A stretch of 64,000 bases of DNA, from the NCBI RefSeq assembly GCF_024713975.1, contig NC_091113.1, positions 13,032,501-13,096,500 on the forward strand, in the 5' to 3' direction. A program made the position numbers and the translations under genes. The notes under the pieces are model-generated. The model was not told the origin of the DNA, did no database searches, and saw only the letters and a list, made by a program, of their open reading frames with translations. Source of the stretch: Paralichthys olivaceus (Eukaryota > Chordata > Actinopteri > Pleuronectiformes > Paralichthyidae). Each line of letters starts with the position of its first letter. The stretch's first letter is position 1. Shown in pieces: positions 25,601-61,986 of the stretch.

Positions 25601-28600
25601 TTCTGATTTCGGTAATCAGCTCCTCATATGTAGCTTTAATTCATATTTCCCCCTGCTGTTTTTACAGTTATGATACTACCTAAACTGAAACATAAAATGT
25701 TTTCCATGGCTTTCTCCTACACAGGGTTGCCCCAGACAAAGCTGGGCTATTTCTTGGAGACGAGGGTGAACGACTTCTTGAAGCGTCAGAGTCACCCGGA
25801 GTCCGGAGAAGTCTTCATTCGTGTTGTCCATGTCTCTGATAAAGTGGTGGAGGTTAAACCAGGCATGAAGTCCAGGTACAGGAAGTAGAAACAGCCACAC
25901 TTAAACTAGACATCTTTGTTTTCTACTAGATCTTTGCAAAAAAAATTAGCTTATAGAATTTTCTATAAGATCTACAAGATTTCATGGAATAAGAAGGTGA
26001 CACACATGAGTATCACTTGTTAGAGTTCACAGAGAACAGCATGTAAAGACGTTTGTTACAAGTCACAGACAGTAATACAAATACTGTTTCTCTATTTTAC
26101 AGTTGGTAAATTTACACACCCTTATTTTTGCCTTCAGATTTGTGGACAGTGGAGAGATGTCGGAGTCTTTCCCATACAGGACAAAAGCCCTTTTTGCATT
26201 TGAAGACATTGATGGAGCAGATGTCTGCTTCTTTGGTATGCATGTTCAAGAGTATGGATCCGACTGTCCTCAGCCCAACCAGAGGTAAGGACATCATTAA
26301 TATATTTTATTATACTCGGGCCATTTGTCTTTAGAACATTTGATATTTTTTCTTAAAATAAAATGTAGGCAGTTGTGATATTTGTGTATGTATTTATATT
26401 TCCTCTTTCATCCACTTAGGCGAGTATACATCTCCTACCTGGACAGTGTACACTTCTTTCGGCCTCGTTCTCTAAGAACAGCAGTTTACCATGAAATCCT
26501 CCTTGGGTACTTGGAATATGTCAGGAAGTTGGGGTGAGTGTTCCTGCTCAAAGAATTACTAGTCTTGAATTACCATTCAGGTACTCACAAATAAGTACCT
26601 TAATGTAGTTTTTATTCTGTCCACAAACTTACTTCTGCTAGCCTATAAATTCATCATGCTCACTGTTTATGGTCCGTCATCCTCAGCTACACCACTGGCC
26701 ACATCTGGGCCTGCCCACCGAGTGAAGGGGACGACTACATCTTCCACTGTCACCCTGCAGATCAGAAGATCCCAAAGCCCAAACGTCTTCAGGAATGGTA
26801 CAAGAAGATGTTAGACAAAGCTGTGGCAGAGCGGATAGTGCACGACTTCAAGGTAAAGAGGCAGCATTTGCCTTTATTCTTGCTTAATGGTTTTCAATTT
26901 AACATGTATTTCATCATGTGTGCTCTTTTTTTAGCTTTTAAGTTTAAACTACATAATTACAATCAGTACAGCTACTAAGATGAACATCAGTGTACAAACA
27001 ATGTTACAGCTGCTGAAAATAAGTGATTCGAACTGTATCCATGCAAAACACTAACTTTGATTTTAATGTACCCCTAAAGGATATTTTCAAGCAGGCAACA
27101 GAGGATCGTTTGACCAGTGCCAAGGAGCTGCCTTACTTTGAGGGTGACTTTTGGCCCAATGTGCTGGAGGAGAGCATCAAAGAGCTAGAACAGGAGGAGG
27201 AGGAGAGGAAAAGAGAGGAGAACAGCACTTCCAATGAGAGTATTGATGTAAGAATGCCATGATTTATTGACATGGCCCACAAGGTATTGTTGATTAGATG
27301 ATCTCTGATGGTCTCCCTCCTCTTTTGTGCAGGAGACAAAAGGTGACAGTAAAAATGCAAAGAAGAAGAACAACAAGAAAACGAGTAAGAACAAGAGCAG
27401 CTTGAGCAGAGCCAATAAGAAGAAGCCAGGGATGCCGAATGTCTCCAATGACCTTTCACAGAAACTCTATGCCACTATGGAAAAACACAAAGAGGTACAA
27501 GAAAATACTTACTAAAATACCTGTATCTAATCACACGTTACTGTAGGAGTGGAGTGAAAAATTAAATGGCTTAGCTTTTGACTTTGTTTTCCAAATTTTA
27601 CTTTTTGCAACTCTGGCATCAGTGCACAAAGATGAATTTGTTATAAAAGACTGTTCTCTCCTTTTTCCCATCCTAGGTGTTCTTTGTGATCCGACTGTCC
27701 GCAGCCCCCATGGCAAATGCCTTGCCCCCTATTTCAGACCCAGATCCCCTGATGGCATGTGACCTCATGGATGGCCGTGATGCTTTCCTGACATTAGCCC
27801 GGGACAAACACCTGGAGTTCAGCTCGCTAAGGAGGTCCAAATGGAGTTCCATGTGCATGTTGGTGGAGTTGCATAACCAAAGCCAGGACCGCTTTGTCTA
27901 CACTTGTAACGAGTGCAAACACCACGTGGAGACTCGTTTTCACTGTACCGTCTGTGAGGTGAGTTAGGGAAAGGTTATTTTAGTGTGTCTCATTTTTAGT
28001 TACATATATAATATTTGAAGAATACAAAAACTATGTATATGTGGGATGTTACTGTTACTGTAAAACCTGCTACATATCACTTTCTAACAATCTCATCCAT
28101 GCCATTCCTCACAGGATTACGACCTCTGCATCACATGTTACAACACTAAGGGCCACGAGCACAAGATGGAGAAGTTAGGCCTCGGTTTGGATGATGAAAG
28201 CAGCAACCAGGCCGCCGCTACCACTCAGAGCCCTGGAGACTCTCGCCGCCTCAGCATCCAGCGCTGCATCCAGTCCCTTGTCCATGCCTGCCAATGTCGA
28301 AATGCAAATTGCTCTCTGCCGTCCTGCCAGAAAATGAAACGGGTTGTTCAGCACACAAAAGGCTGCAAAAGAAAAACCAATGGTGGTTGCCCCATCTGCA
28401 AGCAGCTCATCGCGCTTTGTTGCTACCACGCAAAACACTGTCAGGAGAACAAGTGCCCAGTCCCGTTCTGCCTAAATATCAAGCACAAGCTCCGCCAGCA
28501 GCAGCTGCAGCACAGACTGCAGCAAGCCCAGATGCTAAGGAGGAGGATGGCCAGCATGCAGAGAGTGGGCCAGCCTGCTCCTGGAGGAGCTCCTGGGGGC

Positions 28601-30061
28601 AACGGTTTACCCTCTCCAGGAGCAAACAATGGAGCAACTGGTCCTGGTACCCCTACTTCTGTGGGCACTCAGCCTCCTACCCCACAAACACCGACCCAGG
28701 GGAACATGCCTGCGCTCCCACAGCAGCAGGGAGTTGGGATGGGGGGAATGGGAGTGCCAGGCCAGCAACAGCAAGTTCCACAGCAAGGTGGTCCCATGCC
28801 CCCCCAACACCATCTCCATCAGTTTCAGCAGGTGGGTGGAGGAGGTGGAGGGGGGATGATGAATTCTCCTCAGCAGCAGATGATGCCTCAGCTCCAGCAG
28901 CAGCAGCCTCCCAATATCCAGCAACTCCAGAAGCCACAGCACCCTGGTGGTTTGCCTCCATACAACCCCAGACCTCCTGGAGCCTCTCCTCTCCACCAGT
29001 CACTGGGCAAACCTGGACTTGGCCCAGCCACCCCACCCCAGCAGCAGCAACAACCCAATCAAGGACAAGGGTCCATGCCTGTACAAGGCCAACAGCAAGG
29101 CCCCCCTTTGGCTGCTGTAGAGACAGCTCTAAAAATTCAGCGCCTAGCAGAGACCCAGAGACAGATGGCCCAGGCCCAAGCCCAGATCCGTGGGTTGGGA
29201 CAGGGTGGCATGATACCCCCACATCCTCACCACCAGAACAACCAGGCCCAGATGGCCATGCCCCACATTGGGGCCCAAGGCATGCCCCCACAGGCTCAAG
29301 GAGTTGTTGGAAGGACTATGTTAGACCCACAGCAGCAGGGAATGCTAGCAGGGATGCAACAAGGTGGCCCTCAGACGCAGTTGCCACCTCAAGTTCAGCA
29401 GCAGCTCCAACAAGTTCAGCAGGCAGGTGGTGGACAACTCCAGTCAACAAACCAGCAGTGGGGTGCTGGGGGACCAGCCATGAACCCTCAACAACGGCCA
29501 GTCATGATGGGTCACATGGCACCACAGCAGCAGCCAGGAGCTGCTCAGCAACAGCAGCAGCCGATGAATCAGCAACAACCTCAACCTGGAAACCGTGGGA
29601 TGATGCAGGTAATGGGTGTATCAGGAGGGGCAGCTGGGGCACCTAGTCAGATAGCAGGTGCAGCTGGAACAGGAAACTTACCCCAGGCAGCTTTACAGGA
29701 CCTCCTGCGAACTCTGCGCTCCCCTAGCTCACCTATTCAACAGCAGCAAGTCCTCAACATCCTTCGTTCCAACCCAACCCTCATGGCTGCTTTTATCAGG
29801 CAAAGAGCAGCAAGATATCAAGGAGGTCAGGGGGGTCCTGGAGGACCCGGAGGGCCTCCACAAGGGGCCCCTGGAGGTGTGAGGTTCCAAGGCGCTCCTG
29901 GGGGGCTTCCGGGTGTAGGAGGACCCGGGGCTAACCAGCTTCCTAACATGGAAGGACAAACACAAGTTAATGTGAACCAGACAGGCCAGCCAGGGATGAA
30001 CATGGTTCAGGGTGGAGCACAGGGAGGGAATATGCCCACCATGGCTCAGCTTCAGCAGTTA

Positions 30062-30094
<33 letters not shown>

Positions 30095-31363
30095 CGCCCA
30101 ATGTTGCCTGGGAATCTCCAGCAACAGCAAATGGCTGCATTGCAGCAACAACAGCAGCAGCAACAACAACAGGGAGGAATGCAAGCCGGGCAACAGGGCA
30201 GTATGACAACACAGTTCAGAGAGATGTTGATGAGAAGACATCTGCAGCAGCAGCAGCAACAACAACAGCAGCAGCAGCAAATGGGAAACCACGGGCAGTT
30301 CCAGCAGCCTCAAGGACTTCAGCAGCAGCAAGGCCAGCAAGGCTTCATGCAGCCTGGCCAGGGACAGCCAGGGATACCCCCTTCTTCCCAACCCCAGTCA
30401 GGTGGTGGAGGGGTTGGGGGGCCCCAGCAGCAACAAGGAGGGCCACAGGCTGGGCCAGGACAGCCAGGCCAGCAGCAAGGCTACCCCAATTCCATGTCAC
30501 AAGTAGCTGCAGCACTCCAGCAAAGGCTCCAGATGCAGATGCAGCAGCAGCAGCAGCAACAACAACAACAACAACAACAGCAGCAGCAGCAGCAGCAAAA
30601 TCCAATGGGTGGACTTCAAGGACAAGACGGAGGGCCCAGTGGAGGAGGAGGACCTGGAGGACCTCCACTTCAGGCTGGACAAGTTGGACCAGGGCAGGGA
30701 CAACAACAGCAAGGTGGAGTCGGTGGAGGGGGTGGTGGACCCCCATTGTCACAGACATCCCAAGGTATGCTTCACCAGAACATCCACCAGAGGCTGCTGC
30801 AGCAGCAGCAGCAACACCTTGGGGGTGGCTCTCCTGCCCAACATAGCAGTCCAATGAGTCCTCAACAGCAGATGGCTCAGTCTCCCCACCACCTGCAAGG
30901 ACAAGGAGGACTTGGTCCAGCAGGGTCCCTCAGCAGTCAGGTGAGGTCGCCTCAGCCCTCACCGAGACCGCAGTCGCAGCCCCCTCACTCTAGCCCGTCC
31001 CCACGCATGCAGCCCTCCTCCCAACCTCAGCCCCAGCCCTCACCTCATCGCATCTCTCCACAGACCCAGACTGGCTCACCCCACCCAGGCCACTTAAGCC
31101 AACATCACCCCAGCATGGCGTTGCCCCAACCTCCACAACCCCAGCAGCAAGTGTTACCTCAGCAGCAGCCAGGTGGTTCAGTAGATCCCAGTCAGTTCAG
31201 CTCTGACCAGAACTCCATCATGTCCCAGTTGAGTGGGATGACTGGGATGCACGGTGGACAGGGCGGACAGTCAGACATGTTGGGTGGGAATAATAACAAC
31301 AGCAGTAACAACAATCAGGAGCTGGGAGCGAACATTAACCACAACAGTTTAGACCTTATGTAG
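7687..31363 (+). CDS. ep300: Histone acetyltransferase p300, complete 31-exon coding sequence
   Basis: Nuclear acetyl-CoA-dependent lysine acetyltransferase and coactivator. Exons: 7687-7780, 9832-10505, 11742-11921, 12207-12537, 13353-13466, 13820-14059, 14282-14387, 14542-14667, 15533-15650, 16079-16220, 17986-18060, 18285-18370, 18488-18640, 19014-19514, 20019-20418, 20612-20730, 20915-20978, 21604-21779, 23404-23492, 24597-24677, 24919-24975, 25086-25163, 25262-25329, 25725-25875, 26138-26284, 26420-26533, 26687-26852, 27080-27247, 27333-27494, 27677-27958, 28115-31363; all phases agree, 2836 aa. Domains (approximate residues): NR box [11 protein letters not shown]1 368-462; KIX 601-685; bromodomain 1115-1225 with [16 protein letters not shown] 1226-1345; HAT 1355-1735 with [15 protein letters not shown] and EWYKKML; ZZ 1738-1775; TAZ2 1791-1905; NCBD about 2278-2325. 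The N-terminus ([20 protein letters not shown]) and the post-HAT segment resemble EP300 more than CREBBP. Human p300 is 2414 aa; the excess lies mainly in Gln/Gly-rich C-terminal sequence. The a or b paralog cannot be told. Confidence 0.97.
7781..9831 (+). other. ep300 intron 1
   Basis: The 5' half is GC-rich and continues the CpG-rich promoter region; the rest is AT-rich. No exon, transposase or RNA gene is recognisable. The intron has a canonical gtgagt donor and a pyrimidine-rich acceptor (ttccatttcag). Confidence 0.6.
10506..11741 (+). other. ep300 intron 2
   Basis: AT-rich intron. I see no coding or RNA feature in it. The donor (gtagcg) is weak compared with the other ep300 donors, but reading through it meets an in-frame stop soon afterwards, and splicing restores MGMMGNPGG, which aligns with human MGMMNNPNP. 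Confidence 0.55.
16221..17985 (+). repeat. ep300 intron 10, with a probable dispersed repeat at its 3' side
   Basis: The stretch at about 17560-17690 ends 'aattgtgaggtgcctagagattcccacccctagc'-like (shortened: gaggtgcctagagattccca), which from memory matches the end of a widespread teleost repeat read in reverse. The region 16800-17300 also looks repeat-derived but I cannot name it. No exon of ep300 is missing here: exon 10 and exon 11 join in phase. Confidence 0.4.
22730..23300 (-). mobile_element. hAT-like DNA transposon remnant in ep300 intron 18
   Basis: On the minus strand an open frame (22730-23011) reads [10 protein letters not shown] followed by [17 protein letters not shown]. This spacing of Cys, then NTxxLIKHLKxxH, is that of the BED-type zinc finger at the N-terminus of hAT transposases. 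Flanking sequence contains repeated 'gatatcggctgatac' and 'ccgatacca' motifs often seen beside such elements in fish. Only a fragment of the finger remains; no catalytic core is present. It sits in the intron between exons 18 and 19 and is not expected to affect the protein. Confidence 0.6.
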
Positions 31364-45463: not shown

Positions 45464-48400
45464 TCAGCCATCGGAGCGCCACGTTTGCCGTGCCTCTACT
45501 TCCTCTGAGACGACCAATAGGAGTTCACAGTTCTTCCCTCGCAGCTGCTGGCGAAGAAACTTCCTAGGTTGCGGTGAAATGAAAAGCAAACAGGAAAGCC
45601 ACAGTTATGAAACTGAATAAAAAATTTAAAGGTCAAAAGAGACAATACAAATAGTAATTTAAAATAGGCAGACCTGCTCTAACCTTCTATTGATTGTTTT
45701 CTTTTGGCCACTTGAGGTCAGTGGAACAGGCTGTAAGCATGATACACACAAACTACACACAACACTACAACACTGACACACTGTCACAAGGAAATCTATA
45801 CAATAGCTTCATATGAAATGAAGCGTCATTTCAAGGCTTAACAACATTTTATACCAGTTTTAGAGCTTTTTAAACTACAACAGGCAGCAAACTTGGCTTT
45901 ACCAAAGATTCTTTAGAGAAACATCTACACTCTATCACTATTACCGCTACCAAAATGTGTGACACTTTCAGTTCTTACTAATGTCTTTGGTCATGTTCTA
46001 CATGTGTGGATCGAATAGGCTACACAGAAAATACAGTAAATGTTCTCAAATGAAATGAAATATTACAAAATATATAAAAAATTAAAAAACCTTAGGTCTG
46101 CATTGTTCTTATTAACTACACAGTGTCCATGTAGTACGGCAGTTACAACAACTGGGCAGTAAGGGGTGCTGCAGTCTCTTATACAGCCCTTCTAACGGCA
46201 GCCCTTGCCTGTTCCTGCTGCTACAGCACATCATCTGAACTGCTTTTCTTTTCTGTGTCATGGGGGCTTTGACAACTTGTGCGGCCAGATTATAAAACTG
46301 TTCTTGCAGCTGCTTCCCAGTAGAAAGACGCCTGTCAGCAGTGAAGGGATTTGATGGTTTTACTTTAAGAAAGCAGCTGGAACATAGTCAGAGGTTTGAA
46401 ACTTGGATTCTAAGCTTTATGACGACAGAAGAGAAAGACAGTTATAATCATAGCCGTCATGGTGCGCACATTTCCCCTCAACATAAACACATCACATCCC
46501 TCTAACCTGAGCTGTTCCGGGTTGCCGATGGGTTGAGGGCTACGCAGCTTGGAGTCCAGGTTGTAGTAGACTCCTCCCACCTCTCGGACTCCTATCCAGT
46601 GCTGGCGTTTGAGCGGCAGCCGCAGGGGCCCCCAGCGCAGGTTGGACGGCACATTCAGAATGAAGCCTGTCACATTGGAAAGCTCAATGCTGCCAACATC
46701 CCTGGAGGAAGAAAGGCAACATTTACCTTTTTTATCAACTTCACTATAGTTTTGCTAGAGAGACATAGTTTCACAAACACTATGGAGAAATGGGCGTATC
46801 ATATTTAAATTGGTACTAAACAATTTTCTCTTGCACACTTTATCTAAGGTTAGTTATAAACTCAACAGCCACTTCTCAGGAGTGGTCAGATTTCCTAGAT
46901 CACATTTAGCTGCTTTCAGACATGAAGTTTCCCTGATGTATGAGAAACGCAGCAGGAGATTGTCAGGGTCAGACGTGTTCACAACAACAGGACATTCAGG
47001 TGAGGGGTGGCGCCCGGGTAGAGCAGCAGAGGGGAAGGATATGCCGCAGAAAGCACAGGGTTTTTGTTACAACACATTGACGCCAGTGTCGGCCCTCAAT
47101 CCTCAAAAGATCTTTATCTCCACGTCTTTCCAAGTTGACATCTTCTTTGTGTGTAGCACACATCCCAAGATTGATGTATTCAGTCAGTTTTTGCGTCTGT
47201 TGTGGTATTTTACCATTTTACTAGCGGGCTAGTTTCTGAAAAAGTCTGGAGTAACTGACTCAGACGTCGTGTTCTCACATACAGACCCTTTTGGTGATCT
47301 TCAGAAAAATGGCTGAAAGCAGCTGATGTGTATGATACGCTGCCAAAATAACGAGCACATTGGAGGAAGTTCTGCAATTGATATTATGCTGAAACCAATT
47401 ATATTGTTTTGAGAACAAACAAACTCAAGTTGCATATTTATTTTCAAAAAGCAGAAACCCTGTTTTTTTACTGACATTCGAACGTTTCTATTGATGACAG
47501 TGATTAAAGCTCTGTCCTGTATAACAACACAGTATTTTAGACGAGGGTACAGTGGTTTCAATCTCGATTTCAGAATCAACATCTAGTCACTTCATTAGGA
47601 TCAACTCAGTATTGCAGTTTGTTGCATTGCTTGGAAGCCAGGTTTAGAGAGAGTGTGTTTTTTTTCCTTTTACACCTTTGCAGGAAATCGAAAGTATGTC
47701 TCATAGAGTTTAACTGCACTGTGAGATTTGAGGGGTGAACTTTAAGTTGTGGGGTTCTTTGCTTGGATTCTTTAAACATATTTAAACTACTGAACACTTA
47801 CAAACAAACTATATTTCATTAGATGCTACCGGGAGAGTTACCACTCTATTGTTTTTGTCACAAGCTTCAGAGTAGCTATGATTCTGCTCCTGTTTAGATC
47901 AAGAGAAGGACACAGGCTTTTCTGATAACAGTAACGTAATGCTGATAAAAACAAGTCCGTGACTTGTCAACAGTAATGCCAGACTGATATGGGGGAGGCA
48001 GGAATGCTGATAAAACCGTCTCAGACTTTGTCAGTTGATGAAACTGTTTCTGTGATGAGGTTGCTGAGGTGTCGAAGATAACACAGGAAGCTTTTTTTCA
48101 TAAACATGCGTCAATACATCTTTGCAAGACGCATATTGAGTGATTGTTATCAGCCAGCTGATAATTTGGTCAGGAATACCCTACATAGTCACAGCACTTC
48201 TTCAACCCTGGTCTGAAATGATCAATTTTAGCTCTTTGCCCACTTCCAAAAAAGCCAATTCTGCTCTGATTGGGCAGCTGACATTCTCTTGTGATTTGTC
48301 AGCTGCTTAGAGCGTGCGTTGAAAATGTCCCACCTCTTATCAAGATTCTTCCTGATCAGATGTAAAACACGACTAGAGCCACAGTCACAACGAAGTAAGT

Positions 48401-52657: not shown

Positions 52658-55600
52658 TCACATGTGTCCTAGTTTTCTTGCCAGTACAGAGGCCATGTCA
52701 GTCAGCAGCTCCTCCCTGATCCGGTCCTCCCTCCTCTGCAGCTCGTGGATGAAATGCCCCCTCAGCTCCATCATCTCCATCACCCGCCCCACCAACTGCC
52801 TGCGAGTCGCACTCTGTGCCTCTGGGGGGCAGTCTGGACTGTTGTCCACCAGCTCAGGCCTCTGGCCGCACAGAGACACAGCCCTTCTCAGAGTCCCAGC
52901 GTCCACATCCAGCAGCTGATCCACAGTGCGCCTCTGATCCAGGCCGTCTGCGTGGGTGAGCACTGGGATGATATGTCCCATGACTCCCTCCCCAAACAGC
53001 TCTAGCGTGGCTTTGATCGCCTGGTTAGCGTCTTGGCCGATCCCCAAGCTGGAGCCTGGAGCCCGGACCACCAGCAGGAATGCGTGTGGTCCAGGACTGA
53101 CAAGCTGAAGGCTCCTTAAAGCCTCCCTGGCTCTACTGTTGCTCCCCAGTGATGACCCAAGAAGATCCGGGGTGTCGATCACTGTAACCTCTCTACCGTC
53201 TAATACTGTCATCCCCTTGGAGCAATTTAAAAGGTGACCCACTGGGGCTTTTGTGTCACTGTTGCCCAACAAAGTATCAAGCAGGGTGGTCCGTCCTCCA
53301 CCAGCGGGCCCGATGAGGATCAGCCTCAAGCCTGGTTTGCTGGCTGGATTAACCAGTTCTCCATCTGTGGATGATCCTACAGAGGGGAAACTTCACTCTT
53401 AGATAAACAATCAAGCACTTTGCAGAGAAACTGTGATTGTATTGAGAATCAACAAGTGTTAGAAATAGTCTTACACAAGAAGGTCAGAAGTGTTGATGTT
53501 CTAAAATTCTAAAATTGATGTGGAATGAAAATGTTTGCTGCTGAAACAGCAGTCAGTTTAACCTCTAACTCAAAGGCCTGTGATTATAATGTATATCAAA
53601 TCTGCCCTAACCATAACCTGCTATAAAGAAAGAAAAACAGCTCTATTTATATAGTTTCTTATGCTTCTGATCTGTACTTTGATATTTCTTTTATTTCTGT
53701 AAAGCACATTGAATGGCCTCTGTTTATGATAATGTGCTTTACCAATAAATTGATCTTCATTTATTGTCCAGTGTTGGAGACAATTTACTCAAGTAAATAA
53801 ACAAAGACAAAAATGTACTCAAGTAAAGGTGAAAGTAACACATCAACCTTTTTAATGGAGTAAACGTAAGTAAGTACTTTTAAATGTACTTCAAGCATAG
53901 AAATACTTGCTGTGTGCAGCCTTTTCCTTGATCAAACAGTCTAAAACATCATTATGAGTCTGAGTCTCAGCTTCTTCAGAGTCTATTTCAGGTGTTTCTT
54001 CACCAGGGGTCGGGGTCTAATGTAGCCCTCCCCCTCTGATTGGATCAATGGACAGATTACCACTCGGGGTAGAGAGAAAAGATATTTGTTGATATATGTG
54101 GTGGAGTAAAAGTAAAAGTTCCAAAAAGCGCCCAAAAATAAATCTACTTAAGTAAATTACAGATACATGGAAAACGTACTTAAGTACAGTGATGAAGTAC
54201 ATTGTTACTTCATTTGTTACAATCACTACTGGGCCTTGCCTTAATGAGCCAAAGTCCCTTCTATATAGATAATACATTGGTGTCATGTGGTTGCTTGAAT
54301 TCTTGAGTCACCTCCTGTGATTATTTCCAAACTTACCCAACTGAGACTGTAAACATCTCCTGGCTTGTTTACCTTCCTTTAAAAAGTCAACATGCAAGAG
54401 AAAATCACATGCAGCTCACCTACGATAATCCGCCACATCCAGGACAGCCATTTAAAAAACCTCTGGATTCCTGAGACACAAACGGAAAAGTCAGTTTGTC
54501 TCTTCAGCTGAAATGTGTTTTTCTCTTTATTCTCCCTGGTCAGATATGAGGGGCACATTTTCTTACCACGCAGTGTTCGCACGAGGTGGCTCACCCAGCC
54601 CCAAAGAGCTGACAGGCCTGAGGCAAAAATATGTTATGTTATCATTTCAAATCACAGAAACACACACAGAAATCCTGTTGGGATATTGTTCTTATTTTGA
54701 TTTCACATGATCTCAGTAAACTCACCGGTTAAAGAGCAGAAGAGACGAATGGGCCATCGGATCAGAGCTGGGAGCGCTGCAGAGAAAACAGGAGGACCAC
54801 CAGTGTCACAGCAGGAGTCATGGTACAAAACTGATTATAACGTGGTGGTGAAAGAAGGACTCTTTCTTAATAGGGTATATTTTTATATATTAGTATAATA
54901 CTGTTAATGCTCATAACTTTTTCTATTCACTTATAAATTGCCTCAGGCCCCTCAGATGGATTTTAAAAAGTGTATTGACAAATATGTAAATATATCTATT
55001 GACATACATAGTATATAACATATTATATAGATTTATATAGGTTATAAATCCTGACTCCTCTATGTTTGTGGATGGGACATGGACCAAACTATAAAGTCTA
55101 ATTACACGACAAATACATTTTCTAAAATATTTTTCTGTCATTTAAGGTAGTTCTCATAAAACTTATATTTGTTCAAGTGTTAATTACTCTGGTAAGTTTA
55201 ATGAGCTTATTGATGATATAAAATATGACCATCATTATGTGAAAAGGGCAAGATGGTGGCTCCTCTATGTGGGACATTTTGGTTTCATTTTTGTGCAAAG
55301 GGAGGAAGTGGAGATGTGTTGTCCATCTTTATTTACACATATGTTCTTGACCAAATCTCGGAGTCAATCAGTAACAATATGTCAGAGGAGCTCTCTGTGT
55401 TTCCGAATGCGTGTGAACGTTTCTGTCGCCATGAGTGACTGACTCTGAGAGAATCTGTAGAGGAGATATCCGACCACAGCAAAACCTCCCATCTGGGCGC
55501 TGTTGCCGTTCAGCCACCAGCCTGAACAGAGAGGGAGAAGGGGGAGGACAGCGGGACATTAGTAATGCAGTGCTATTCAAAACTTATCATGTGCTTTACC

Positions 55601-56493
55601 TTTGACCCAAAGAATGACAAACTCTAAATCCTGGAAAACCCCTAATGCAAGTGTGCAGTGTGAAGGCTGACGTCACATTCTCTGTCATTCCAGGATCATT
55701 ACTTTGAAAACAGGAAGCAGTTTATAATGGCAGCTGTGGGGATTTATTATAACATTTATATACTGTATATTAATATTGTATAGACAACCACTCAAAGTGC
55801 TTTACAGCTCAGTTTTTCCATTCACAAACACATACAGTGCCTTTTGTGCAGCACTTCCTCTATCACACACTCACACTCTCCCATCAGGGGCAACTGTGGG
55901 TTCGGTATCTTGCCTATGAACACTTGGTCATGTGGAGCAGTGGAGATTGGGATTGAACCGCTGACCCCTGGTTAATGGATGAGTGGACGGAGGACAACCT
56001 CCAGAGCCACAGCCACAACACTGTGCTATAGTATCACACGGCACAATCACCAGTGATTAATTCACTCAGAATGTAGCACTATAGATGTTTTGTGTCCACA
56101 GTTAATTTAACACTGGTTGATCTGCTGCATACAAATCCTTTTTTGATAATTTTGTCAAAATTGTCGGAACTGAAATGTGACAAGATTGGTTGTGATTTTG
56201 TTTTAAATTTATTTTTGAAAAACGAACCATTAACTAATTGACTGCACAGCCTGCAAACGTATAGACCCAGTAATAAAATGACTTAAATATAGACTGATGA
56301 ACTTGTCATTAAGTTCTCATTTAGAATGCACTGTAACAGAAGAGACGTCAAAACACTTATAACCATCTGCATATTCTCTGGAATCCTGCCCACACTGTAA
56401 TGTCTTTACTGGTATGTAGGTAGGTTTGGTGAGTCTTTAAAATCCCCCCTTACCTGGAACAACATCCCCGTCCTTGTCACACTGGCACTCCAT
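52658..56493 (-). CDS. AIG1/GIMAP-type G-domain protein with tandem-repeated N-terminal exons
   Basis: Six exons join in phase in transcript order: 56454-56493, 55444-55521, 54726-54776, 54567-54617, 54420-54470, 52658-53376; 329 aa. The last exon encodes an AIG1-type GTPase domain: P-loop LILIGPAGGGRTTLLDTLLG, switch-region VIDTPDLLG, then SPGPHAFLLVVRAP, the G4-like LTHADGLD and a CGQRPELVDN segment, all in AIG1/GIMAP order. A short charged helix ends the protein. The N-terminus starts MECQCDKDGDVVPG, followed by a hydrophobic stretch (MGGFAVVGYLLYRF). Three 51-bp exons then each encode 17 residues: LPALIRWPIRLFCSLTG, LSALWGWVSHLVRTLRG and IQRFFKWLSWMWRIIVG. These look like membrane-seeking amphipathic helices. 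The P-loop Lys is Arg and the DTPG Gly is Asp, so GTP hydrolysis is doubtful. GIMAPs act in lymphocyte survival and vesicle traffic; the role here is unknown. The G domain is certain; the 5' exons rest on splice sites and phase. Confidence 0.8.
53770..54230. repeat. Dispersed repeat rich in AAGTAAA/AAGTACTT motifs, second copy
   Basis: Contains 'aatgtactcaagtaaaggtg', 'gtaagtaagtacttttaaat', 'agtaaaagtaaaagttccaa' and 'ctacttaagtaaattacaga'. Same style as 4550-4735. It fills the intron before the G-domain exon of the AIG1-type gene. Confidence 0.55.
55045..55340. repeat. MITE-like element, diverged copy E in an intron of the AIG1-type gene
   Basis: Shares 'aatcctgactcctctatgtt', 'gggacatggaccaaactata', 'ggcaagatggtggctcc', 'ggacattttggtttcatttt' and 'gtggagatgtgttgtccatc' with the other copies, in the same order. 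The right end reads ccatctttatttaca, a mutated terminal repeat. It is the most diverged copy and lies between coding exons 2 and 3. Confidence 0.65.
55785..56040. repeat. Dispersed teleost-type repeat in intron 1 of the AIG1-type gene
   Basis: The stretch from 'caaccactcaaagtgcttta' through 'ccattcacaaacacatacag', 'caggggcaactgtgggttcg', 'tcttgcctatgaacacttgg' and 'gattgggattgaaccgctga' is, from memory, very like a repeat found throughout percomorph genomes. No terminal structure was resolved. Confidence 0.55.
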
Positions 56494-57424: not shown

Positions 57425-60400
57425 TCATGAGCCCAGCCGGTCAACCAGAGCATCGATCAGTTCCTGCTTCTTAGTACCAGTGGTCCGAATTCCAAACAGC
57501 TTACATGCGTCCTTTAGCACAGGCACGGTCAGCTTTCCCATGGTGCCGTTCTGCACGTGGGCCTTCAGCTCGTCTTCTGACAAGTCAAGCTTTGGCTTCT
57601 TCTCAGCTGCACCTCCGGTGTTTGCTTTAAGCACAGAAATGAGAAAACATTCAAAATGATGTTAAAAAACAAACACACAGCTTTCCCCCGCTGCACACTG
57701 GAGGATTTTCAAATCTTAACTGATTTAAAAAGCACAGGAGACCACAGACATTACAACAGTTTAATATTTAATTGTCAGAACGCACACACGAGACAATCCT
57801 GTTAAGATGCAAGATCACACTTGTGTTTAATCCATCCAGAACTACAGTGCCAAAAAGAAACGCGTGCAACAAACTTAATTTCCCACTCATATTGACATAA
57901 TGGGTCAAACAAACAGTTTCTAAGTAGTGATTTTAGAGACTAGGGAACTCACAGAAACTCTTGTGTTGGTGATGTTTCCCTGTCAGCTTGCTCTTACTCA
58001 TGGAATCAGAGTCTCGACTAGATTCTCCCCCAACTTGAATTCAGTCTCTGACTTCAGGGTTACCTCTGTAAACCCCTCACACTACAGGATCACTTTGCCA
58101 GATAATCTGTTCAGATGATGATCCTCTAGTGTGAGGCCAGCATTAGGTTCAGTGATGACTTGAGTTCTGACCTGTTTTGCGTTTGGCAGCTGGTTTGTTG
58201 TCTGGGTTGTAGTGGGAAGGGTAAACCAGGTCTTTAAACTCCGGCACCAAACGACCCAGACGATCGTCAATCTGTTCGTTCTTTGGCACTGAGACAGAGA
58301 TGGAGAGAGACGGGGAGAAAGTGTTAGATGAAGAAACAAGCAATGGTTGTACCACCCACAGGGGTAACCAGCATCCCTGCTTTTGTCTGCATCTTACTGA
58401 TTAGGTCCTCTGTATCTTCTGGAGCCATCATGTCCAGAGCCAAGGCCTCCAGGTTTCTGTAATGTTGCTGGATGACTGGGTTCTCAAACGCATCGCTCCT
58501 GTGTAAGATCACAAAGAACCAAAACATTTAACAGAAAGAAACTGATTACATTAACTCGATATGAAAGTTGCAATGTTTTATCTGAAATCTGTGTGAACAA
58601 CTGAATACGTGCAGCTACCTGTATTTGAAGCGGAGTTTGGAGATGATCTCCTTCATCTTATCCACCTGTGTTTGTGAGGCCAACGGGAACTGGGGAGGAT
58701 CCACCGTCCGTATATCATCAGCATATGGCAGGAAAATCATGTTGAAACCTGATACAGGCAAGAGATAATAAGTTGAAGTGAAGCTGCAGTACACTACAAT
58801 GACATTACCTGTAAAGTAGTCACAAGATAGATAAGCCACACAGTGGTGGGATTTAATCAAACAGTAAACTCCCGTGGAGTGCAGCAGTTTATCACCTGGT
58901 GGTACATTCTGTACTTTCCCCTCATCGATCACTTCTTTCTGAGGCACCAGGGCAACAAATCGTGGTGGGACGTTTCGGCGTGCGATGCAACGGCACAAAG
59001 CGAACAAGTTTCTCTCGCTACACTTTCTCAGCAACGCGGAGAACAGACATGCACTTCCTGAGGAGGAGAAAACAAAATGCATAAGAGCACAAAGAACAAA
59101 CAAGTTAGTGGGGCCAGCTCAATGAGACAGTTTTGATACTACATATAATATATATTGAAAAATAACCATCTATAACCATCTATCTACACTGATACGAACA
59201 CTAGCATGAATGTTAAACATTAAAACACACTGTAGGAGCACCAACTGTTAAAAAACAAAAGATTCTTATACTGCTTTTAGACATGAACTCCAGGAAAATT
59301 GGGTCTGGACACACACACACCTTTAACCACATCCTCCTCAGGATAGAGAAAGAGAGAAGGCCGGATATGGTGATGCAGTTTCAGACTCTCCAAGGGTTTG
59401 AATCCGAAGAGAATCAGTCCCGGATCATCAAACCTCTTGATTGCGGCCACCTCGTCCCTCTCCATCACTATCTTCTTTTTACCATACACCTACAGCAGAC
59501 ACACACAAACAAAGGGCTATGACAGAAATCACTGAATAAATCCTCTGATGTGTGATGCCATCATCCACTAAATTAGCATTACATTTAGCCTGGTCTTACC
59601 TGGGCTTTCTTTATCTCACTGGGCAGCAGCAGGCTGCCGGTCTGGGTATGGAAGGTGCGGGTTTTGCTGTGCACTGGCTCGTTGGTTTCCCTGTAAAGTT
59701 TGATGGCTCCAGGTTTTCGGGCCGTCACGGCAGTGGCATAAATCCCCACGGCTACTTTTAGGTCCTCACCCAGACACAGCTTTAACCTAAGGATGGCAGG
59801 GAGGAGGAAAGAAAAGACAGATCCGTACATTTTGAAAAAGGAACTGAGAAAAAAACAGGATGCAGGGTAGCATAAAAATATTAATTTGTCACTTATCTCT
59901 ACCTTGCGATGGCTCTCTTCTTCTGCTCCTTGGCGCGCACCCTCTTCTTGAGGTCCTCCATTTTTTCACACGGCTCCAGCTGCAACTCCAACTCGCTCTC
60001 ATCCTCTGGTGGACTTATAATGTCACAAAAGAAGATCGAGACATCGAAGCCGCCAGGTTTCATCAGGTGCATTAAATCAATGATGACACCTAAGGAAAAA
60101 GGGATGAGTCAGGTGAGGTCACACAGGCTGAAGATACCTACCACTCCAGTTTCAGGTATTGGGATACATCCATACCACTACGTTTAGGTTTGATAACAGC
60201 ATTTTCACAAGCTTTTAATTGATTTCAAATGTTACGTTCTAGACTGGAGGCTAATGCTGGTTGTTTTCTTCTGGAAGGAGTCATGTGATAAAAGCATGAC
60301 TAATAAGTGAAGGCTATGTCCGGGCTGAAAACACCCAATTGTTTTAACACGTCTCAATTTCTGCCCCTCGAGACTAAAGTCCATAGTTTTTAAATGAAAA

Positions 60401-61986
60401 CAGGCCCAGCAGCGTTTCCAAACTTCTCCCCTTCTGCAGCTCTAAAACTCCAGAGTAGTGGCCTTGTTATATCATTGCAGTCACTTCTTGTGCCATCATA
60501 TGGTTGGAGAAACCGCTAGTTATACAGCACATAAAAGGTATTACAGATGTGCGTAAAAGGCCAGCAGCCTTCACTTCAGACCCACCTGTCTCTTTGAGGT
60601 CACTGGCTTTGGTGCGAGCCTGTCGATCCTTTGTACTGTCGCCTCCATGCGGCTCATCCCTGCAGGTGAAGATCATGAGCCTCTTGTGTGAGAGGCGAAG
60701 CTTGATGTCACTGTAGAGGTTGCTGCAGCACCACAGCGCGTCCCCTAATGACGTCTCTCCACTGCCCATGGTCTCTGCTGCGAGCTTTGCCCCTTTGTCC
60801 TCCATTAGAGCGTCCACTTCCTGCACTCGCTTTGCACCTATGGAAAAGGGAAATGGAAAGCAAACATGTATGTAAGGAGACCAGTGAGGGAAAAAAAAAG
60901 AATGACTGGGTATGAAGGAAAGATACTTTTTAGAAAGTTAAAACATTATATTGATGGAAAGAATTAGCGTATCAGATATTAATGAAGGGAGGCTAGTAAT
61001 CTGCATTGTAGTACAGTTGATTTCTTACAGTAATAACAGTAAAAAGGTTACAAAGTTACATTTTCTATCTCTACACGTTAGAGTTATATTTGCAATTGCA
61101 GCAAAGCACGCTCGCTCTAAAATCTGACCATGTGTTGGTTTAAAAAAAAAGTGTCTCACCAGGTTCATTGAGGTCGTGGTAAACATACACGTGCTTGAAT
61201 GAGTTCCTGGGGTTTTTGCTTTGTTCTGTGCCGTAGAAAACTAGAGCCACCAGGTCCCTGTGACTACTGATGATCTTACTGGTGTACACACTGCGCACAA
61301 CCTACATGAACAGAAGACAGACACTTATTATCATGAGACTAATGAATGGAGTAGGGCATGTCTGAAAATAAAAACAACCAGTAATGTAATCGTATAACAC
61401 TGATATGCAGCAGAAGCTTGGGTGGTTTCTTATTTATTTTATGCCCAAATAGTTCATCTTACCTGCATGGTCATGTCAAAGTTGGATGGCTGTCCGTCTT
61501 CTCCTTTGATGAACATTTCCTTGGAGGCATCAACCAAGAACACCAAACTGTCTCTTCCTGTGACTTTGTACTCTCCTAACAAGGACAGAGAGCCCAGTTT
61601 GTTTTGGTTTAGTTTTAATGGGTCAGATACTGAACAGTTGATATCAGATGCCATAACAAATGTTAAATTACATGGTGAATTGTAGTGAAATGCATTGTAC
61701 TAAGATCAATGTTATTATAAAGTGTTCACATCAAAGTAGAATGTGTGAAGATTCTCAGTTATGTCATGATATCTTTTTAGTATGAAAAAACGGACAAACA
61801 AATGCAGATGAGGTAATGAAATAACTATAAAATAATACACTATGTATTATAATATACTATATAAATAATAATATGGCAGATCTGGCAAAATCAGAGTGCT
61901 GCTGTCATCTCACCTGTAGTTTGCTCTCCATCTTCCTGCTCTTCCTCTTCATCCTCGTTGTGGTAGTAGGCGTTCCACTGAGCCAT
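57425..61986 (-). CDS. xrcc6: Ku70, DNA double-strand-break end-binding protein, complete
   Basis: Ku70 pairs with Ku80 (XRCC5) to ring DNA ends and recruit DNA-PKcs in non-homologous end joining. Twelve coding exons in transcript order: 61914-61986, 61463-61575, 61160-61301, 60586-60837, 59903-60089, 59600-59786, 59321-59489, 58896-59057, 58619-58748, 58398-58498, 58172-58288, 57425-57624; all phases agree, 610 aa (human 609). An acidic N-terminus ([13 protein letters not shown]) precedes the vWA-like domain ([16 protein letters not shown]). The central beta-barrel/DNA ring has [20 protein letters not shown] and [20 protein letters not shown], and the C-terminal arm [17 protein letters not shown]. 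The protein ends in a SAP DNA-binding domain ([20 protein letters not shown]). The start ATG aligns with the human start region (MSGWESYY versus MAQWNAYY). A non-coding first exon probably ends at 62609. It is head to head with desi1, the arrangement seen in human. Confidence 0.97.

Follow-up and report, generated by a model that had tools for sequence, protein, structure and literature searches.

On the minus strand of the window, by which the whole analysed stretch of 64,000 nucleotides is meant, three small exons of exactly 51 bp were predicted one after another upstream of an AIG1 G domain. This raises the questions of whether the three exons are real, whether they arose as copies of one another by tandem exon duplication, as proposed in the preliminary description of this DNA, and what kind of GIMAP-like protein they would help to encode.

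Gene model and genomic neighbourhood

Six exons on the minus strand can be read as one frame for a predicted protein of 329 residues. The splice sites of these predicted exons were scored with a vertebrate consensus matrix. Exon 1 (56454..56493) provides 13 whole codons from the ATG, with an in-frame TAA 6 bases 5′ of it (by eye), and ends in phase 1 at a donor of 7.8 bits. Exon 2 (55444..55521; 78 bp, phase 1-1) has an acceptor of 7.9 bits and a weak donor, GTCAGT, of -1.3 bits, and encodes a moderately hydrophobic peptide; it is a fourth phase 1-1 exon, which was overlooked in the preliminary description, and the frame survives its skipping. The three exons of 51 bp follow, all of them phase 1-1 and each with AG directly 5′ and GT directly 3′: exon 3, encoding repeat A (54726..54776; acceptor 6.7 bits, donor 7.1 bits), exon 4, encoding repeat B (54567..54617; acceptor 4.3 bits, donor 3.9 bits), and exon 5, encoding repeat C (54420..54470; acceptor 5.5 bits, donor 6.0 bits). 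The coordinates, lengths, phases and peptides previously given for these three exons match the sequence, and CAGCTCT does occur at bases 7-13 of exons 3 and 4 (by eye). Exon 6 (52658..53376; 719 bp) is entered in phase 1 at an acceptor of 6.3 bits and contains the AIG1 domain, in an intact frame of 238 codons, and the stop codon. All introns of the gene are in phase 1, and in the cell the transcript is presumably spliced at these sites.

Variant products can be read from the same exons. In exon 4 a second donor at 54594 scores 4.1 bits, compared with 3.9 bits for the donor used in the model, and splicing there would shorten the exon to 23 bp and shift the frame. The intron between exons 4 and 5 (54471-54566) is 96 bp long, divisible by 3 and open in frame, so that a transcript retaining it would encode 32 further residues in the same frame. 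Read-through of exon 2 (55521-55333) gives a 59-residue frame up to a TGA, with AATAAA at 55333 and the weak donor in between, so that exon 2 could be a composite terminal exon of a short isoform. A resemblance of this read-through product to HIG1-type proteins was rejected: it had no Pfam match at an E-value of 1, and its single weak match in the PDB was to a potassium channel (E 0.093).

The GIMAP-like gene lies just downstream of xrcc6 and on the same strand; xrcc6 was recognized by Ku domains in the frames 60470-60937 and 58618-59118 and, by eye, by a SAP-like end at 57428-57661. The frame at 46413-46754 looks Josephin-like and presumably belongs to josd1, which was named in the preliminary description. 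Additionally, a large frame at 28088-31360 has Creb_binding, TAZ and ZZ matches, and we take it to be the end of an ep300-like gene.

The AIG1 G domain

The three 51-bp exons were reported to join in frame to an AIG1 domain, and this is supported by a Pfam match of the predicted protein to AIG1 (PF04548; 85.4 bits against a cut-off of 27, E 4.4e-24, positions 1-195 of 212); the exon 6 frame alone reached 86.8 bits. The nearest solved structure is that of human GIMAP2 (2xtm, E 3.9e-19), and the solved proteins with a significant match to the G domain are GIMAP2, 7, 4, 5 and 1.

Several of the nucleotide-binding motifs are altered, and the G domain is degenerate, which the preliminary description had passed over. 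The G1 motif reads GPAGGGRT and departs from GxxxxGK[ST] by an Arg in place of the P-loop Lys. In 21 paralog domains of the same genome this position is occupied by Lys in 17, Arg in three and Gln in one (by eye), and two of the three domains with Arg are otherwise intact. At the G2 Thr, a Leu stands in the aligned place, compared with Thr in 17 of the 21 paralogs (by eye, in a loop of uncertain alignment). The G3 motif is DTPD instead of DxxG, the Gly being kept in 19 of the 21 paralogs (by eye), and GIMAP2 likewise has DTPD in G3. The acidic residue of G4 is kept (LTHAD). Due to the occurrence of Arg in 3 of 21 paralogs and of Asp in the G3 motif of GIMAP2, no single residue loss proves inactivity; taken as a whole, impaired nucleotide switching of this G domain is probable.

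Altered G1 or G3 motifs were also observed in other AIG1 domains of this genome (L031:152-1384, L016:4665-5276 and L026:6659-7492), where such degeneracy may not be unusual. In a tree of the GIMAP-like protein and 21 AIG1 frames none of the 19 inner branches was well supported; the branch of the GIMAP-like protein was the longest of 22 (2.38, followed by 2.19 and 1.82).

Properties of the N-terminal leader

The leader was previously described as cationic, hydrophobic and membrane-binding. Each repeat is in fact cationic, with net charges of +2, +2 and +3 for repeats A, B and C, and amphipathic, with hydrophobic moments of 0.47, 0.55 and 0.57 (shuffle P 0.027, 0.005 and 0.022); membrane binding would fit these properties. 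Basic residues (His included) are found at repeat positions 3, 6, 10, 13 and 16, and the moments of the three repeats point in similar directions (343, 310 and 316 degrees; agreement P 0.027). All 51 residues taken as one helix have a moment of only 0.10 (P 0.63). This near-zero value arises because the face rotates by roughly 100 degrees with each repeat of 17 residues. The 11-residue repeats of Perilipin 4 hold one face in line, whereas 17-residue repeats do not. Since the faces would be misaligned in this way, short surface helices hinged at Gly are more likely than one long helix.

The hydrophobicity profile permits a different topology. Only two 19-residue windows have a mean Kyte-Doolittle value of at least 1.2, residues 27-45 and 51-69, and both lie in the leader; the former straddles the junction of exons 2 and 3, and the latter, the most hydrophobic one (1.35), reaches from repeat A into repeat B. 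Both windows are also favourable on the octanol scale (-8.5 and -6.3), and so is most of the leader. A C-terminal hydrophobic segment was not found by the 19-residue Kyte-Doolittle window in the full predicted protein. The leader may therefore span the membrane by a helix at 51-69, perhaps with a second one near 27-45, instead of resting on it as three surface helices, and we regard this as a tentative alternative of some weight. The octanol scale is, however, not specific, as it also flags residues 176-198 within the G domain, and a helix that spans two units does not need each 51-bp unit to have an amphipathic moment of its own, with agreeing directions. From the sequence, attachment of the leader to a membrane appears better supported than the mode of attachment, and the case for a spanning helix at the A/B junction appears about as strong as that for surface helices.

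Similarity of the three 51-bp exons

The peptides of the three repeats were compared over residues 1-16 in register. The summed BLOSUM62 score was 38, compared with -40.8 ± 17.0 for shuffled peptides (P 0.0002), and the true register ranked first among 256 cyclic registers. When 84 other 16-mers that are amphipathic and cationic were pooled for comparison, the repeats were again more similar to each other than expected (P 0.00015). The pairwise P values were 0.002, 0.039 and 0.010. On the level of DNA, the three exon pairs are identical in register at 23, 17 and 18 of 51 positions (P 0.0065, 0.19 and 0.21), with offset ranks of 1 of 101 for the first pair and 9 and 6 of 101 for the others; only the A/B pair is above chance. 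The third 51-bp exon thus appears to be related to the other two at the protein level only. Introns and exon-plus-intron units showed no similarity (P ≥0.32 in 9 of 9 comparisons, made with introns 3 and 4 as a whole and with introns 2 and 5 represented by their 110-base ends). In the region 56453-53377 no further decayed copies were found with a profile made from the three exons themselves, the next score being 7.3 compared with 36-40 for the exons.

Some of the features first put forward for tandem duplication carry less weight than the peptides. The invariant Trp-7 is present in all three repeats, but it is weak support when taken alone because a column invariant across all three repeats arises in 12% of shuffles. 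The invariant Gly-17 is largely an effect of the splice sites: one study reports that proto-splice sites in phase 1 coincide with glycine codons (PMC1626468). Gly is found at four of the five junctions of the GIMAP-like gene (by eye), and Gly-17 should not be counted since the split G|GN codon is favoured at phase-1 junctions. Among the 24 AIG1 frames that passed a filter on score and start, out of 36 in this genome, the best upstream acceptor was in phase 1 in 19 and in phase 0 in one, while none above 2 bits was present in four. Since AIG1 exons in this genome are commonly entered in phase 1, the phase is not independent evidence of duplication.

Tandem duplication accordingly retains the equal length, the shared phase and the in-register peptides, and lacks agreement of the DNA in two of three pairs and of the introns. 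The exons could instead be real without being copies, their equal length and amphipathicity being due to selection for short membrane-binding segments and their Gly to the junctions. This would agree with the single DNA pair above chance, with introns and exon-plus-intron units that share nothing, and with the glycine expected at phase-1 junctions. Such an origin is nevertheless rather unlikely in view of an identical length three times in a row, a true register that is the best of 256, and a similarity beyond that of the 84 other amphipathic cationic 16-mers. Exons 3-5 are likely copies, whose duplication would have caused the three equal exons; since a single DNA pair is above chance and the introns are unrelated, any duplication must be old.

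Alternative exon structures

A further reading divides the locus between two products: exons 1 and 2 would encode a separate 59-residue protein that ends at the in-frame stop before the AATAAA at 55333, and the AIG1 exon would belong to another transcript or to a dying gene. The donor of exon 2 is weak, at -1.3 bits, and the read-through frame does stop after 59 residues and is followed by AATAAA. Against this, exons 3-5 have good sites and maintain phase 1 up to the AIG1 exon, whose frame of 238 codons is intact, and no Pfam family matched the 59-residue frame at an E-value of 1, so that we consider the two parts of this reading jointly improbable.

The reality of the small exons was assessed between 55440 and 53377. 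The acceptors of exons 3, 4 and 5 rank 1, 5 and 4 of 132 in this region, and the donors rank 1, 5 and 2 of 113. Candidate exons were defined by entry in phase 1, a length divisible by 3, the lack of a stop codon and a combined score of at least 8.1 bits. Four candidates were found, the three 51-bp exons and one of 198 bp composed of exon 4, the 96-bp intron and exon 5, compared with a mean of 0.03 in order-2 Markov simulations (n = 3000), none of which contained three or more, although these thresholds were chosen after the exons had been seen. The whole window contains four candidates on the plus strand and seven on the minus strand, and the 51-bp exons are its only candidates of the same length that lie no more than 600 bp apart. 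The G+C content of exons 3, 4 and 5 is 0.57, 0.65 and 0.45, compared with 0.32-0.41 in the introns. With Trp and Met codons excluded, 23 of 41 third positions are G or C (P 0.007 against 0.36); exons 6 and 2 have G+C contents of 0.64 and 0.68, respectively, over all third positions.

That exons 4 and 5 form a single exon of 198 bp, leaving one 51-bp exon and one larger exon, would be in line with the lack of a stop in the 96-bp intron, with the weak donor of exon 4 (3.9 bits) and with the score of the fused exon (10.2 bits compared with 8.1 bits for exon 4 alone). Both inner sites are present, however, at ranks 5 of 113 (donor) and 4 of 132 (acceptor), and both flanking peptides fit repeat A in register, which makes the fusion quite improbable. 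It is more improbable still that three spurious small exons lie in an intron by chance, a reading for which the dependence of predicted exons on a consensus matrix alone can be adduced and which is opposed by the absence of three such candidates from all 3000 simulated regions and by the G+C content and third-position bias of the exons.

Searches of the genome, databases and literature

The genome searched, presumably that of a teleost fish, comprises 588 Mb in 25 contigs and has at least 38 AIG1 matches. A search for the leader elsewhere in it gave five matches at E-values up to 10, all inside the GIMAP-like gene, and the DNA of the exon cluster matched itself only; exons of 17 residues are near the limit of such genome searches. 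Upstream of the AIG1 frames (2.0-4.5 kb), small candidate exons scoring 8 bits or more were present in 8 of 24 cases, and no Trp/basic-hydrophobic leader exons were seen by eye among the small exons listed for the 24 frames, at most six per frame. Elsewhere in the same genome, one uninterrupted frame of 1653 codons (L025:561-5519, minus strand) matches AIG1 close to each of its ends.

The leader alone had no Pfam match at an E-value of 1 and weak matches in the PDB, the best at E 0.23. The full protein had no relatives in viral contigs in a search able to detect close relatives only. A word search of titles and the starts of abstracts of open-access papers returned no protein of this architecture, which is not proof of absence.

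Comparison with known proteins

GIMAP2 shares the AIG1 G domain and the Asp in G3 (DTPD) with the GIMAP-like protein, but it keeps the P-loop Lys, which is Arg here. As far as the available text of PMC8201404 goes, the hydrophobic part of GIMAP2 attaches to lipid droplets; it is double and C-terminal, whereas the putative attachment of the GIMAP-like protein is N-terminal and exon-repeated. GIMAP1, GIMAP3 and GIMAP5 have an AIG1 domain on a membrane, as is predicted for the GIMAP-like protein, but differ by a transmembrane part that is C-terminal according to the same partial text (PMC8201404). Snail AIG proteins likewise combine the AIG1 domain with added membrane segments, carrying one to three transmembrane segments, and a repeated-exon amphipathic leader is not mentioned in the accessible part of that paper (PMC7053062). 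Perilipin 4 shares a repeated amphipathic unit for surface binding, as described in the portion available of PMC5889406, but it is not a GTPase.

Discussion

The best reading of the locus is an N-terminally membrane-attached, probably nucleotide-impaired GIMAP-like protein. In full, it would be a minus-strand gene with six coding exons for a divergent GIMAP/AIG1 protein with a repeated-exon N-terminal membrane leader and an impaired G domain, and to this complete model we assign an even chance. Exons 3-5 would descend from a single 51-bp phase 1-1 exon by tandem copying long ago. Each of them specifies an amphipathic segment of 17 residues that is cationic, contains Trp and closes with the glycine of the splice junction, and exon 2 would contribute a moderately hydrophobic part. 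The leader may rest on an acidic membrane surface in the form of short helices with hinges at Gly, and so keep the G domain at the membrane. Normal GTP binding and switching have probably been lost from the G domain, which could serve as a scaffold or partner other GIMAPs.

A bolder model is improbable in its entirety: an immune-type, catalytically silent GTPase whose membrane affinity is stepped according to how many phase 1-1 leader exons the transcript includes, with four interchangeable cassettes of 78, 51, 51 and 51 bp and a short isoform of exons 1 and 2, and with Trp/Arg segments that might even act on membranes of microbes living inside cells.

The GIMAP-like gene looks like a variant within the known AIG1/GIMAP family and not like a new kind of system. 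If the preferred model is true, a GTPase family in which the known membrane-bound members are anchored C-terminally has gained a modular N-terminal leader through exon repetition, and has gained it in a member that seemingly lacks nucleotide switching. Any of the leader exons can be dropped without a frameshift, and the membrane affinity of the protein could therefore be tuned by splicing.
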